The notes beneath the pieces are model-generated. The model had not been told where the DNA came from and searched no databases. It worked only from the letters and a program-made list of their open reading frames with translations. This document shows, piece after piece, positions 11,169 through 14,057 of a stretch of 37,054 nt of DNA (the stretch's first letter is position 1; each line of letters opens with the position of its first letter). Origin of the DNA: an uncultured Eubacteriales bacterium (GTDB lineage: Bacteria > Bacillota > Clostridia > Christensenellales > Aristaeellaceae). The translations under genes were made by a program, and so were the position numbers. The stretch covers positions 1 through 37,054 of the forward strand of contig CADASI010000037.1 in the NCBI GenBank assembly GCA_902790525.1. The letters run 5' to 3'.

Positions 11169-12986
11169 ATGCCACTCAAAATCATACGGCTCATACTGCT
11201 CTGCGCGTCCATGTACGGCTACATCGGCTTTTTTGGTGAGAAGATCGCGCCGGAGCTGTCCATCGGCTTTACCTTTGCGGGCATCGGCAGCGTGATGTTC
11301 GCCGCGGGGCTTTTGAACCTGCTGCCCGAGGCGGCGCTTATCGTGTTTGTGCTCGGGCTGGCCTGCCTGGCCCGGAAGCTGGCGAAGCGGGAATGGAAAC
11401 CGCGGCTCACGCTGGGAGGGGTTTTCTTCCTGGCGGTCTGTGCGGTGCTGGCGGTCAGGCTGTACGGGGAAAAGCTGGTGTACATCGACAACTTCACACA
11501 TTGGGAGACGGCGGTGCTGCACCTGCTGACCAAGGACCGCTTCCCGAACTTCATGGATCCGTACATTCGCTTTCAGTCATACCCGCTGGGGACGGCGTCG
11601 CTGATCTACTATTTCGCGAAGGTGAGCGGGATTCGGGCCGAATGGTTCCAGATGCTGGTGCACTGGGCCTGCGCCGCGGCGATGCTCAGCGGCCTGTTCT
11701 GCCTGGCAAAAGACGTTCCGGCGAGGATCGCGTGCTGTGTCGCGGCGCTGTTGCTTCTGTGCGCGGACAATGAGTTCACACAGCTGCTCGTGGACAGCAC
11801 GCTGGGATATGTGGCGCTGTGCGCGGCGGCGTTCAGCATATACTACGGCAAGGCGCTGAGGCAGAAGGGGTATTATGTGATCCCCTGGCTGACATATCTG
11901 GTCGCCGTGAAAAACAACGGCGCGCTGCTTGCGCTCTACGTGGTGGCGCTGGTGCTGCTGTGGGGCGGCTGGCGCAAGGGACTCGCGGCGCTCGCGGCGA
12001 CGCTGGGCACGCTGTTCCTGTGGAACCGGCATGTGTCCTATGTGTTTGAACAGGGGATGATGGCCCAACACGCCATGTCTATAGAACACTTCCGACAGAT
12101 GCTGGCGGTCAAGAAGCCGGGCGCGGTGGAGAACATCCTCCATAAGATGACGGCCCAGGTGTTTTCGCTGAACAACGCCTATCTGCCGGTGCTCCTGCTG
12201 TCCGCGGCGCTGCTGGCTGTGGCGCTCGTCCGCGCAAAGGAGGACCGCGCGGTGCGCGGACTGCTGATCTACGGCGCGGTGTGCTACCTGATCTATCAGG
12301 CGGGCATGCTGGGCATGTACGTGTTTACGATGCAGGAAAAGGAAGCGCTGCGGCTGGCCAGCTACGACCGGTATCACGGCACGATATGGATTTTTGCGTC
12401 AGGGATCATGCTGATTGCGGCGATGCGCCTCGCCGGGAATCTCCGCGCGCATCGCGGAGGTCGGGCGTGGGCGGGCGCTTGCTGCGCGGCGTGCGTTGTG
12501 GCGATAGCCGTTTCGGGCATGTCCCATGTGTCGTACTATACGCGATACATGGACGAAGACGCCCGGAGCACGCTGGCGATCCGTGAGCGGGTGGACGATA
12601 TGGTCGCACAGTACGGGATCGTGGCGGGAAAGCGCTACTACGTGCTGGTGGACGAAGATTTCACCTCCGCGGAGACGGCCTACCTCTACAACATGGTCAA
12701 CTGCCTGATGCTGGCCGACGACGTGCAGGTGCGCAAGCTGGGCCAGATCTACAGCAACGAGGAGATCGACGCCTGCGACTACATGATCGGCTTCGGCGAG
12801 GATGAGGAGATCGGCGCGTACATCTACGATACCTACGGCACCCGCGACCGGGTGGTCGACCTGAGCAAGACGCCGAGGAAGCCGGAGGCGGCGACGTCCG
12901 ACGACAAGGCCGGCGCGAAGGACGACGACAAGGCCGAGGCGGGGCCGATCAACCTGCGGGAGGCGCTCATGGGGAACGGAAAGTGA
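11169..12986 (+). CDS. Polytopic membrane protein, GT-C-glycosyltransferase-like (paralogue 2)
   Basis: 605 residues, clearly a tandem duplicate of the preceding gene: the two align from the first residues (KIIRLILLCASMYGY versus KAIRLIALCASMFGY) through IDNFTHWETAVLHLLTKDRF, QSYPLGTASLIYYFAKVSG, EWFQMLVHWACAAAMLSGL and the C-terminal domain (YYVLVDEDFTSAE). Identity by eye is well above half. Divergence is concentrated in the outer loop (DSFSHWG becomes DNFTHWE) and in the linker near the end, which here is a run of Asp, Lys and Ala before PINLREALM. The preserved end motif P-[IL]-N-L-x-E after a variable linker suggests a partner-binding tail. GGGAAGGA precedes the ATG. No terminator is obvious downstream before the toxin-antitoxin locus. 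Confidence 0.75.
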   Translation: MPLKIIRLILLCASMYGYIGFFGEKIAPELSIGFTFAGIGSVMFAAGLLNLLPEAALIVFVLGLACLARKLAKREWKPRLTLGGVFFLAVCAVLAVRLYGEKLVYIDNFTHWETAVLHLLTKDRFPNFMDPYIRFQSYPLGTASLIYYFAKVSGIRAEWFQMLVHWACAAAMLSGLFCLAKDVPARIACCVAALLLLCADNEFTQLLVDSTLGYVALCAAAFSIYYGKALRQKGYYVIPWLTYLVAVKNNGALLALYVVALVLLWGGWRKGLAALAATLGTLFLWNRHVSYVFEQGMMAQHAMSIEHFRQMLAVKKPGAVENILHKMTAQVFSLNNAYLPVLLLSAALLAVALVRAKEDRAVRGLLIYGAVCYLIYQAGMLGMYVFTMQEKEALRLASYDRYHGTIWIFASGIMLIAAMRLAGNLRAHRGGRAWAGACCAACVVAIAVSGMSHVSYYTRYMDEDARSTLAIRERVDDMVAQYGIVAGKRYYVLVDEDFTSAETAYLYNMVNCLMLADDVQVRKLGQIYSNEEIDACDYMIGFGEDEEIGAYIYDTYGTRDRVVDLSKTPRKPEAATSDDKAGAKDDDKAEAGPINLREALMGNGK

Positions 12987-13048
12987 GCGGAGGGATTCCC
13001 TCAACTATCCGTGAAGCACCAAAATTTGCGTGGAAAAGGCGGCAGCGC

Positions 13049-13077
13049 TTGACACGCCGCCGCCAATGCTGTACAAT
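13049..13077 (+). promoter_or_regulatory. Promoter of the antitoxin RNA
   Basis: TTGACA (13049-13054), a 17-base spacer and TACAAT (13072-13077). It points into about 80 bases that end in a terminator and contain no plausible reading frame, so it most likely drives a small RNA. Confidence 0.8.
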
Positions 13078-13083
13078 GGAGTT

Positions 13084-13165
13084 GGATGAGGGAAGTGCTC
13101 CCGCCATAGAGGTCTATGGAAAAGCAGCCTCCGAGTAGATCGCAACTACCCGGAGGCATTTTTTA
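13084..13165 (+). ncRNA. Antisense antitoxin RNA of a par-like type I module
   Basis: Predicted RNA of about 80 bases, from the promoter at 13049-13077 to the T6 tract at 13159-13164. It has a short 5' hairpin (GGGA/TCCC, 13090-13102), a second hairpin (CCATAG/CTATGG, 13104-13119) and the terminator stem. CTCCCGCC at 13098-13105 is repeated directly at 13255-13262, where the minus-strand toxin mRNA reads GGCGGGAG next to its ribosome binding site. The RNA can therefore pair with the toxin mRNA both there and through the shared terminator. This is the arrangement known for RNA II of the pAD1 par system. Function is inferred from layout. Confidence 0.65.
13127..13164. terminator. Bidirectional terminator shared by antitoxin RNA and toxin mRNA
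   Basis: GCCTCCGAGTAG (13127-13138), a 7-base loop and CTACCCGGAGGC (13146-13157), with one internal mismatch, followed by T6 on the plus strand and by TGCTTTTCC on the minus strand. It lies 2 bases beyond the toxin stop codon and ends both convergent transcripts. Confidence 0.85.
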
Positions 13166-13166
13166 T

Positions 13167-13244
13167 CTAACGTGTAACAGAGTAAACCGCTATCACGAGA
13201 CTTGCGATAGAAATCAGAAGCGCCAATAACTCGACGTTCGTCAT
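13167..13244 (-). CDS. Small hydrophobic type I toxin peptide (holin-like/Fst-TxpA-like)
   Basis: A 25-residue peptide, starting MTNVELLALLIS and ending YSVTR, almost entirely one membrane helix with a polar N-terminal few residues and a basic C-terminus. This fits the Firmicute family of putative holin-like or Fst/TxpA-type toxins that damage the cell membrane. The ATG (13242-13244) is preceded by GGGAGGTGG with a 6-base gap. The binding site is sequestered: GGCGGGAG (plus 13255-13262) is complementary to CTCCCGCC in the same leader (plus 13277-13284). A consensus promoter, a structured leader, a shared terminator and a convergent antisense RNA all support a real gene despite its size. It is too short for normal gene callers. 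Confidence 0.75.
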   Translation of the reverse strand: MTNVELLALLISIASLVIAVYSVTR

Positions 13245-13312
13245 ATCCTACCACCTCCCGCCTTTTGTGTATCGTCGGCGGGAGTGCTTCCGGGCCATTG
13301 TCCAGCACAGGT

Positions 13313-13342
13313 ATTATAGCATTGAGCGACGACTGCTGTCAA
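13313..13342 (-). promoter_or_regulatory. Consensus promoter of the toxin gene
   Basis: On the minus strand TTGACA (plus 13337-13342), an 18-base spacer and TATAAT (plus 13313-13318), both perfect. Transcription from about 13306 gives a leader of roughly 60 bases containing the hairpin that hides the toxin ribosome binding site. Confidence 0.88.
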
Positions 13343-13499: not shown

Positions 13500-14057
13500 A
13501 TGAGAATCGCGAGGAAGCTGATCGCCGCGCTGCTGGTGCTGGCCATGCTGCTGTCGGCCGCGGCGCTGGCGGAGACCTACGTCAAGTTCACCAACAACGC
13601 CCGGGGCTACAAGAAGGCGGGCAGCGGCAAGACGGACGTGGTCATCAAGAAGGGCTCCGTCTCCTGCGCCGAGGACGGCCTCGGCAGGAAATGGACCAAG
13701 GTCTACGTGGACGAGGAGAACGAACTGTGGTTCAGGACGAAGAACCTGAAAAAGACCAAGTCCGACGAGACGAAGATCATGTACTACGCCGGCGGCAGCG
13801 GGCGCTCCACCTACGACGACGACGAGGGCGTGCACCGCTACAAGACCGGCAAGAAGTACGTCTACGCCACCGGCAAGTGCAACATCCGCAAGTCCCCGGG
13901 GCTGGACGGCAAGTCGCTGGGCACCCTCAAGAAGGGGGCGAAGCTCAGGTACCTGGGCCGGCGCGCCGTGGACGACCGAGGCGTGCACTGGTACAAGGTC
14001 AAGACCGCAAACGGCAAGAAGGGCTGGGTGTCCGAGGCCTTTACCAAGCTGAAATAG
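13500..14057 (+). CDS. Secreted bacterial SH3-domain protein
   Basis: 185 residues with a clear signal peptide (MRIARKLIAALLVLAMLL, cleavage after about ALA at 23-25). The mature part is lysine-rich. Its second half (about residues 118-185) is a type-3 bacterial SH3 domain: YATGKCNIRKSPGLDGKSLG, a run of strands, and GVHWYKVKTANGKKGWVSE. Such domains bind cell-wall peptides. The first half (residues 26-85) looks like a diverged second SH3-like unit. The ATG at 13500 is fixed by GGGAGG 9 bases upstream and by the signal peptide; the open frame extends to 13434 but not meaningfully. The next gene, also an exported SH3 protein, starts 19 bases after the stop, so the two are probably co-transcribed. 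Confidence 0.85.
   Translation: MRIARKLIAALLVLAMLLSAAALAETYVKFTNNARGYKKAGSGKTDVVIKKGSVSCAEDGLGRKWTKVYVDEENELWFRTKNLKKTKSDETKIMYYAGGSGRSTYDDDEGVHRYKTGKKYVYATGKCNIRKSPGLDGKSLGTLKKGAKLRYLGRRAVDDRGVHWYKVKTANGKKGWVSEAFTKLK

Follow-up and report, generated by a model that had tools for sequence, protein, structure and literature searches.

The 300-base cassette lying between a 605-codon ORF (11169-12986) and an SH3-domain gene (13500-14057) of the window, by which we mean the whole 37,054-nucleotide stretch of DNA analyzed here, is in our judgment probably a type I toxin-antitoxin cassette on the par plan of pAD1, with a peptide family of its own. Comparison of its sequence with those of its relatives indicates that it is a real type I-like module, family-wide yet patchy, and supports the toxin-antitoxin interpretation that a first-pass annotation had given the locus; the same annotation placed the locus on a chromosome, which is likely for the 37-kb contig. 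Three features go beyond that account: a second terminator-like hairpin (T2) around the antitoxin -35 element, an antitoxin start region that resembles an inverted toxin leader, and variation of the terminator loop and antitoxin body among tandem copies. The 605-codon ORF has no Pfam match (the Pfam input for gene neighborhoods comprised two window ORFs and, from the viral-collection contig L049, seven ORFs out of 31 frames).

Two convergent promoters, both described in the first-pass annotation and both borne out, define the cassette. On the minus strand (13342-13313), the toxin promoter consists of TTGACA (13337-13342), an 18-base spacer, and TATAAT (13313-13318), matching 12 of 12 consensus bases; its -35 element is kept in most aligned copies, and a -10-like hexamer is present in each cassette of subfamily A, the window's group. 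On the plus strand, the antitoxin promoter TTGACA-N17-TACAAT (13049-13077, with the -35 element at 13049-13054 and the -10 element at 13072-13077) matches the consensus at 11 of 12 bases, and its -35, spacer, and -10 are conserved across 21 aligned copies. Two such promoter sites in 1.2 kb compare with 0.4 +/- 0.6 in shuffles. The toxin mRNA is predicted to begin with GCTGGACAATGG (13295-13306, minus), about where conservation among copies restarts. Its leader, GGAAGCA followed by CTCCCGCC (13277-13291, minus; the CTCCCGCC part at 13284-13277), supplies an arm that hides the Shine-Dalgarno (SD) sequence, and the opposite strand of the leader hairpin, GGCGGGAG (13255-13262, minus), contains the SD and is the putative target of the antitoxin seed. 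In silico folding of the window toxin RNA gives the SD a probability of being unpaired of 0.002, in agreement with the earlier description of a ribosome binding site buried in a leader hairpin. The 25-residue frame reported on the minus strand does exist (13244-13167) and encodes the toxin-like peptide MTNVELLALLISIASLVIAVYSVTR. The antitoxin RNA, a conserved region with predicted ends at 13084 and 13166 (plus, about 83 nt), carries GGAAGTG plus the seed CTCCCGCC (13091-13105), followed in a single-RNA fold by a hairpin, CCATAG-AGGT-CTATGG (13104-13119), in the interval between seed and terminator. The repeat of CTCCCGCC that the annotation had noticed is confirmed at 13098-13105, which is the seed, and at 13255-13262; because the toxin leader also carries CTCCCGCC on its own strand, the relation is a three-way one, in which leader arm and antitoxin seed share the SD as a common target.

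Both transcription units point into T1, a shared bidirectional terminator (13127-13157, both strands) with a 12-pair stem, a variable loop, and compensatory changes among copies. It had been placed 2 bases past the stop codon, which is right for the A-tract preceding the stem, but the G+C stem itself lies nine bases from the stop codon. T2 (13032-13064, toxin strand, minus) surrounds the antitoxin -35 element, and a hairpin with this element in its loop or arm, followed by a T-run, was found in 40 of 47 representative cassettes whereas mononucleotide shuffles gave one in 22 of 235; in some of the seven cassettes that failed, the stem seems to have been drawn too far into the T-run. The T-run of T1 is longer on the antitoxin side in 35 of the 44 cassettes (of 47) that this count took in, equal in 6, and shorter in 3, so that the antitoxin should end at T1 and toxin transcripts may continue to T2. 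An apparent wobble asymmetry in T1, with G-U pairs on the toxin strand, is not pressed here: it is reversed in L049, and the automatic count is noisy. In most subfamily B cassettes, automated detection of T1 gave either no call or a wrong one. The script that collected cassettes required an ATGA or GTGA start and a strict antitoxin -10, and its misses include L012, L020, L082, L083, L084, four units of L118, and the insertion-bearing copies L124 and L127; removing four of its 60 rows (one alternative start each for L008 and L114, and two spurious frames) left 56 cassettes, with 47 representatives under 85% identity.

The peptides are 23-30 amino acids long, with a single hydrophobic stretch and a basic tail; lysine or arginine occurs within the last three residues of all 56, and residues 6-21 of the window peptide, the predicted membrane stretch, have a mean hydropathy of 2.71. 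They fall into subfamily A (consensus MTNxELxxxLIAVASLALTIYFGxKR), subfamily B (about 29 residues, for example MSNVELLNTLLAVAGLVLSAYAIGHQSRR, found in genome G075 and in genus g56), and subfamily C (MTDYELLM..., at L123 and L135), with L083 (MTTYERIM...) as a possible further member. Selection on the peptide is purifying: dN/dS is 0.21 across 31 subfamily A cassettes, 0.32 for the 18 of these from the window's genus group, and 0.33 across 14 subfamily B cassettes. Codons 14-16 of subfamily A (GCAAGTCTCG) are nearly invariant, with AGT in 29 of 31 sequences and CTC or CTT in 30 of 31. A candidate upstream leader peptide (ATGGCC...) was rejected by eye, as its frame and length vary among copies. 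Searches of Pfam and NCBIfam with the window and related peptides returned nothing above a curated cut-off, and PADLOC returned no match at all. A question of ancestry arises from L083, a cassette of similar layout whose peptide aligns with positions 1-33 of the 34 in Pfam Hol_Tox (E 0.065): the family could be a diverged Hol_Tox or TxpA-like branch, a reading that concerns where the peptide came from, is compatible with a type I cassette, and strikes us as possible though distinctly the less likely course. The MTDYE or MTTYE start of subfamily C peptides agrees with it. However, the L083 match scores 13.5 bits against a curated cut-off of 23.3, Hol_Tox matched neither the window peptide nor the 20 subfamily A and six subfamily B and C peptides searched, and TxpA/RatA have long 3' overlaps, whereas the cassettes have a short seed at the SD. 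What the family has in common with the Hol_Tox/TxpA-BsrG group is the short N-terminal similarity of L083.

The first-pass annotation had pointed to related genomes as a check on the layout, and the layout does recur in them. A blastn search with the window cassette gave matches in 11 of 60 genomes (its own included), all within the window's genus, and revealed a second copy in the window's own genome (C152:7463-7711). The peptide frame is intact in 22 of the 23 places examined in the genus, counting the window, the sole miss being L023, an antitoxin without a toxin; because frame and layout are kept in these 22 places and recur in other genera of the family, the arrangement goes beyond chance. 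Within the genus, a covariance model of the toxin half (R1) matched 11 of 28 genomes and left 17 without a match, and a model of the antitoxin half (R2) matched 13 of 28, although the matches in its two extra genomes, G010 and G018, when inspected by eye, resemble the relic of a promoter and an ordinary terminator. Across the family, R1 matched 16 of 200 genomes, and the toxin half was detected in 39 of 308 genomes, from 13 of 50 genera, by R3, a model based on diverse members; some of these matches are weak or degenerate copies. Beyond the family, R1 matched one of 396 genomes of the order and one of 391 of the class, in both cases the window's own genome only, and remote relatives may escape it since R1 is tuned to subfamily A and the order and class runs used stricter filters. 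A pattern search of genome contigs returned 23 stretches, of which 15 are homologous cassette loci by blastn and 8 are unrelated or match the short pattern only; the 15 come from Clostridia or Clostridiales metagenome assemblies, several of them from ruminant rumen or duodenum. Two pattern scans of a viral collection (IMG/VR) yielded one homologous contig, L049, with a full cassette. Genes near it (11.7 of 48 kb examined) include those for a ParA-type ATPase, a resolvase, and a protein that matches a ribbon-helix-helix profile below cut-off, a setting that suggests a plasmid-like element. The window cassette had no blastn match among plasmids and phages. Flanks are mostly unrelated between copies and are common only to the closest relatives, to tandem copies, and to the array in G075. 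At L120, some toxin-half matches stand beside large ORFs that we take, by eye, to resemble ADP-ribosyltransferase-like mobile-element proteins. Near one subfamily B cassette, at L121 (1-110, minus), there is a partial T-box leader (46.2 bits against a gathering score of 93). No publication on this cassette family was found in the literature by title or abstract start.

Genome G075 carries 11 R3 matches within 75 kb (L118, L119, and L120; G075:C3, 682-758 kb). Among the 10 of these copies with both halves, the per-site difference is 0.53 in the T1 loop, 0.00 and 0.03 in its arms, 0.15 in the ORF, 0.16 in the leader, and 0.33 in the antitoxin body. Four tandem units encode the same peptide with four different T1 loops, and their pairwise differences are 0.61 in the loop, 0.39 in the antitoxin body, and 0.20 in the spacer after T2, compared with 0.057 at third codon positions, 0.019 over the ORF, and 0.007 in the leader. 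Among these four units, with gaps scored as differences, 6 of the 7 columns of the T1 loop are variable, as are 38 of the 57 of the antitoxin body. By comparison, variable columns number 8 of 242 over the leader, ORF, and stem arms taken together with the antitoxin promoter and T2 (loop p 7e-8), and 15 of 74 over the flanks between units (loop p 0.001, body p 1e-7). Such variation in loop and body fits selection for orthogonal pairs. The fast change of the loop may alternatively reflect relaxed constraint, an explanation that must account for the loop changing more than the flanks do, although the flanks used as a yardstick could themselves be constrained or homogenized.

Broken and altered copies are mostly, though not always, of the kind expected for a toxin-antitoxin pair. 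The first-pass annotation had held that relatives with a disrupted peptide frame and a kept RNA, or the reverse, without compensation, would speak against it; such relatives do occur, mostly in the direction in which the antitoxin outlasts the toxin. An antitoxin without a toxin is found at L023, at L136 (with its own terminator), and at L138 (where it is seedless); at L085 the toxin frame is broken and the antitoxin kept, and at L126 the toxin is shortened and T1 lost. The reverse case occurs once in G075, in a copy at L119 (6165-6278, minus) whose toxin is kept; here inserted DNA, insertion-sequence-like by eye, interrupts T1 and has severed the antitoxin half. This copy alone of the 11 in G075 has the SD GGAGA rather than GGAGG, a single case that proves little. 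The remnant at L023 (G021:C97, about 1850-2107) adjoins what by eye appears to be a tRNA gene. The L136 orphan (about 592-701; G006:C54:40191-40300, minus) has a near-perfect terminator of its own, is located upstream of an equally oriented full cassette, about 130 bases from its toxin half, and is possibly an independent small RNA. Two copies, L124 (G1000:C100) and L127 (G195:C43), contain by eye a similar insert of about 110 nt between the SD and the start codon of the toxin, which looks structured and had no Rfam match at E<=1.

These habits bear on whether the peptide is a toxin at all. It might instead be a non-toxic membrane peptide under antisense control, one that regulates, say, a membrane enzyme, with the RNA pair acting as an ordinary expression switch. 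Such a peptide would equally be under purifying selection, as would any useful peptide, and the weak profile matches of the family, all below cut-off, include small membrane proteins (MgtS-like, E 0.17; KPN_two_small, best E 0.018 and 0.013). Against this, the cassettes are multi-copy, patchy, mostly at unrelated flanks, and tandemly duplicated, antitoxin-only copies exist, and the L049 copy neighbors ParA and resolvase genes; such behavior is that of an addiction module and not what a housekeeping regulator would show, and we consider a non-toxic role improbable.

That the predicted antitoxin acts as an RNA is consistent with both complementarity and covariation, which fit pairing with the toxin mRNA. 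Across 22 genus copies, 7 of 37 predicted pairs show changes on both sides: T1 pairs 170-196 and 171-195 do so in 9 and 11 of the 22 copies, and leader pair 36-66 in 3. We evaluated the duplex between the SD region and the antitoxin 5' end in 30 subfamily A representatives, excluding L019, whose antitoxin half contains an insertion. True partners have a mean of -20.3, permuted partners -19.1, and shuffled seeds -13.9, and 12 of 5000 permutations were as low as the true partners, a p value that, like the others from permutation given here, serves as a guide and overstates independence because the cassettes are related. Taken singly, 19 of the 30 cassettes reach p<=0.05 and 11 do not, 7 have a lower value than any of their 100 shuffles, and pairing is poor in L107 (-12.8). 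Individual cassettes illustrate the match of seed and SD: L077 combines the SD GACGGGG with the antitoxin CCCCGTT, L082 has CAGTGGGAG with CTCCCACTG, and L086 has AAAGCGGGG with CCCCGCTTT. The antitoxin seed thus tends, by these comparisons, to be complementary to the SD and to change along with it. The antitoxins of subfamily B have no clean SD complement, and interrupted matches were seen by eye only. The first-pass annotation had held that the two RNAs can pair at the ribosome binding region as well as at the terminator: the seed/SD duplex does favor true partners in subfamily A, but in a cofold of the window pair at minimum energy, with pseudoknots disallowed, the leader hairpin stays closed and pairing between the RNAs is confined to the 3' overlap.

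Further structure is predicted at the 5' end of the toxin mRNA. RNAalifold pairs this end with GTCTCGC in the subfamily A ORF (the block of codons 14-16), in columns that are invariant or change on one side only, bar one cell, and with long-leader rows out of register at the 5' side; the helix is absent when the short window RNA is folded on its own, and in the long toxin mRNA the 5' end is predicted to close on the 3' part. A long isoform that activates translation is unsupported, as single-strand folds give the SD a probability of being unpaired of 0.002 in the short and the long RNA. Rfam gave no matches in the window at gathering score; at relaxed thresholds, the window locus had nothing par-like or relevant, only matches that look like chance, and seven loci with relatives had nothing relevant.

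The toxin and antitoxin sides of the cassette are alike when each is read as its RNA. In the window, the leader GGAAGCACTCCCGCC and the antitoxin GGAAGTGCTCCCGCC are identical at 13 of 15 bases, and the toxin 5' end GCTGGACAATGG and the antitoxin promoter block GCTGTACAATGG (13068-13079, plus) at 11 of 12. Across subfamily A, similarity between leader arm and antitoxin is 19.6 for true and 16.2 for permuted partners (0 of 5000 permutations; 23 of 30 cassettes at p<=0.05), and similarity of the 5' end blocks is 16.5 compared with 14.5 (0 of 5000; 25 of 30 cassettes). The corresponding 5' block values in subfamily B are 22.9 and 21.3 (12 of 5000; 13 of 14 cassettes), the one miss being L120, which has a different toxin 5' region; here toxin and antitoxin RNAs both start with a GTAGGCAGG-like sequence, often co-varying, as in L129 with GTAGACAGG on both sides. 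The simplest reading of this likeness is that the antitoxin start region arose as an inverted duplication of the toxin leader, and the two may be kept in step by their common pairing to the SD or by gene conversion. An imperfect inverted repeat could also mark the ends of a miniature mobile element whose expression signals are incidental, as sides alike in inverted orientation and copies at mostly unrelated flanks might suggest, but the promoters lie outside or across the repeats, the frames are under selection, and T1 and T2 are held in place, all of which makes this highly unlikely.

If the cassette is a type I module, its working may be envisaged as follows. The toxin mRNA, transcribed from 13306 leftwards, would fold its SD into the leader hairpin and so be silent from the start. 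The antitoxin RNA (13084 to about 13166), transcribed from the opposite strand, would be fully complementary to the toxin mRNA across T1, and its seed CTCCCGCC would copy the leader's own anti-SD arm. First contact would be made through the T1 loop, after which the antitoxin would cover the SD in trans; once the antitoxin is exhausted, the mRNA would be translated, and the one-helix peptide would enter the membrane and stop growth. T2 would halt toxin-strand read-through at the antitoxin promoter, and the toxin mRNA extended to T2 would be complementary to the antitoxin over its full length. Differences in the T1 loop would prevent co-resident copies from neutralizing one another. The fuller scheme, in which the antitoxin gene is an inverted copy of the leader, leader, seed, and SD evolve as a triplet, the terminator and antitoxin loops serve as an address code that insulates co-resident toxins with the same peptide, and the T2 read-through mRNA forms a 5'-3' closure and can pair with all of the antitoxin, is tentative, and we would sooner doubt than affirm it as a whole.

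Among known systems, the cassette is most readily set beside par. According to the parts of a review of Fst drawn on here (PMC7472228), par of pAD1 has convergent promoters, a shared bidirectional terminator, a direct repeat at the SD, and a stem-loop that hides the SD, and the cassette shares these features with pAD1 par and chromosomal par; a par-like 5'-end pairing is predicted for it as well. The comparison with pAD1 par made in the first-pass annotation holds for most features. Par has DRa plus DRb, whereas the window has a single 8-bp unit at the SD, a DRb-type contact at the start codon was not seen in it, and a second block extending towards the start codon occurs only in some diverged members (for example L079 and L080). 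The cassette antitoxin is also longer, at about 83 nt (predicted) compared with about 40 for par, and the cassette adds T2 around the antitoxin -35 and an antitoxin start like the inverted toxin leader. The peptide, as the annotation had observed, is unlike Fst. Most of the RNA-level features that the consulted parts of the review describe as conserved are recognizable, and a [PDST]xxxG pattern occurs near the C-terminal end of 29 of 56 peptides (all in subfamily A), but we give almost no credence to a true Fst/Ldr member diverged in sequence, since the signature tryptophan of that superfamily and proline are each absent from 56 of 56 peptides, the window peptide lacks the xxxG motif, Pfam and NCBIfam gave no Fst-named match at E<=10 (HMMER filters discard weak matches), and no par-like Rfam match appeared even at a relaxed threshold. 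Fst of pAD1 itself has valine at the tryptophan position, according to the same parts of the review (PMC7472228). As its peptide fails the Fst/Ldr signature, the cassette is best described as par-like in its probable working rather than filed as Fst. Compared by description, it also resembles the type I modules of Clostridioides difficile (CD2517.1-RCd8 and others) in its convergent overlapping genes, basic-tailed membrane peptides, and multiple copies; in the sections of PMC6563280 used here, those modules lie partly in prophages and their peptides have 34-59 residues, compared with 23-30 in the cassettes. The predicted 5'-3' closure of the long toxin mRNA would be a point of likeness to hok/sok, whose peptide and layout differ from those of the cassette; no sign of 3' processing was seen in the cassettes.

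Genes as short as these are easily missed by annotation. The four tandem units, alike in peptide and different in terminator loop, make testable how specificity is achieved among many type I pairs in one cell, and the likeness of antitoxin and leader hints concretely at how a gene for an antisense antitoxin could originate. If the present reading is true, the par-type control plan would extend, in uncultured gut bacteria, to a family of peptides lacking the Fst signature.
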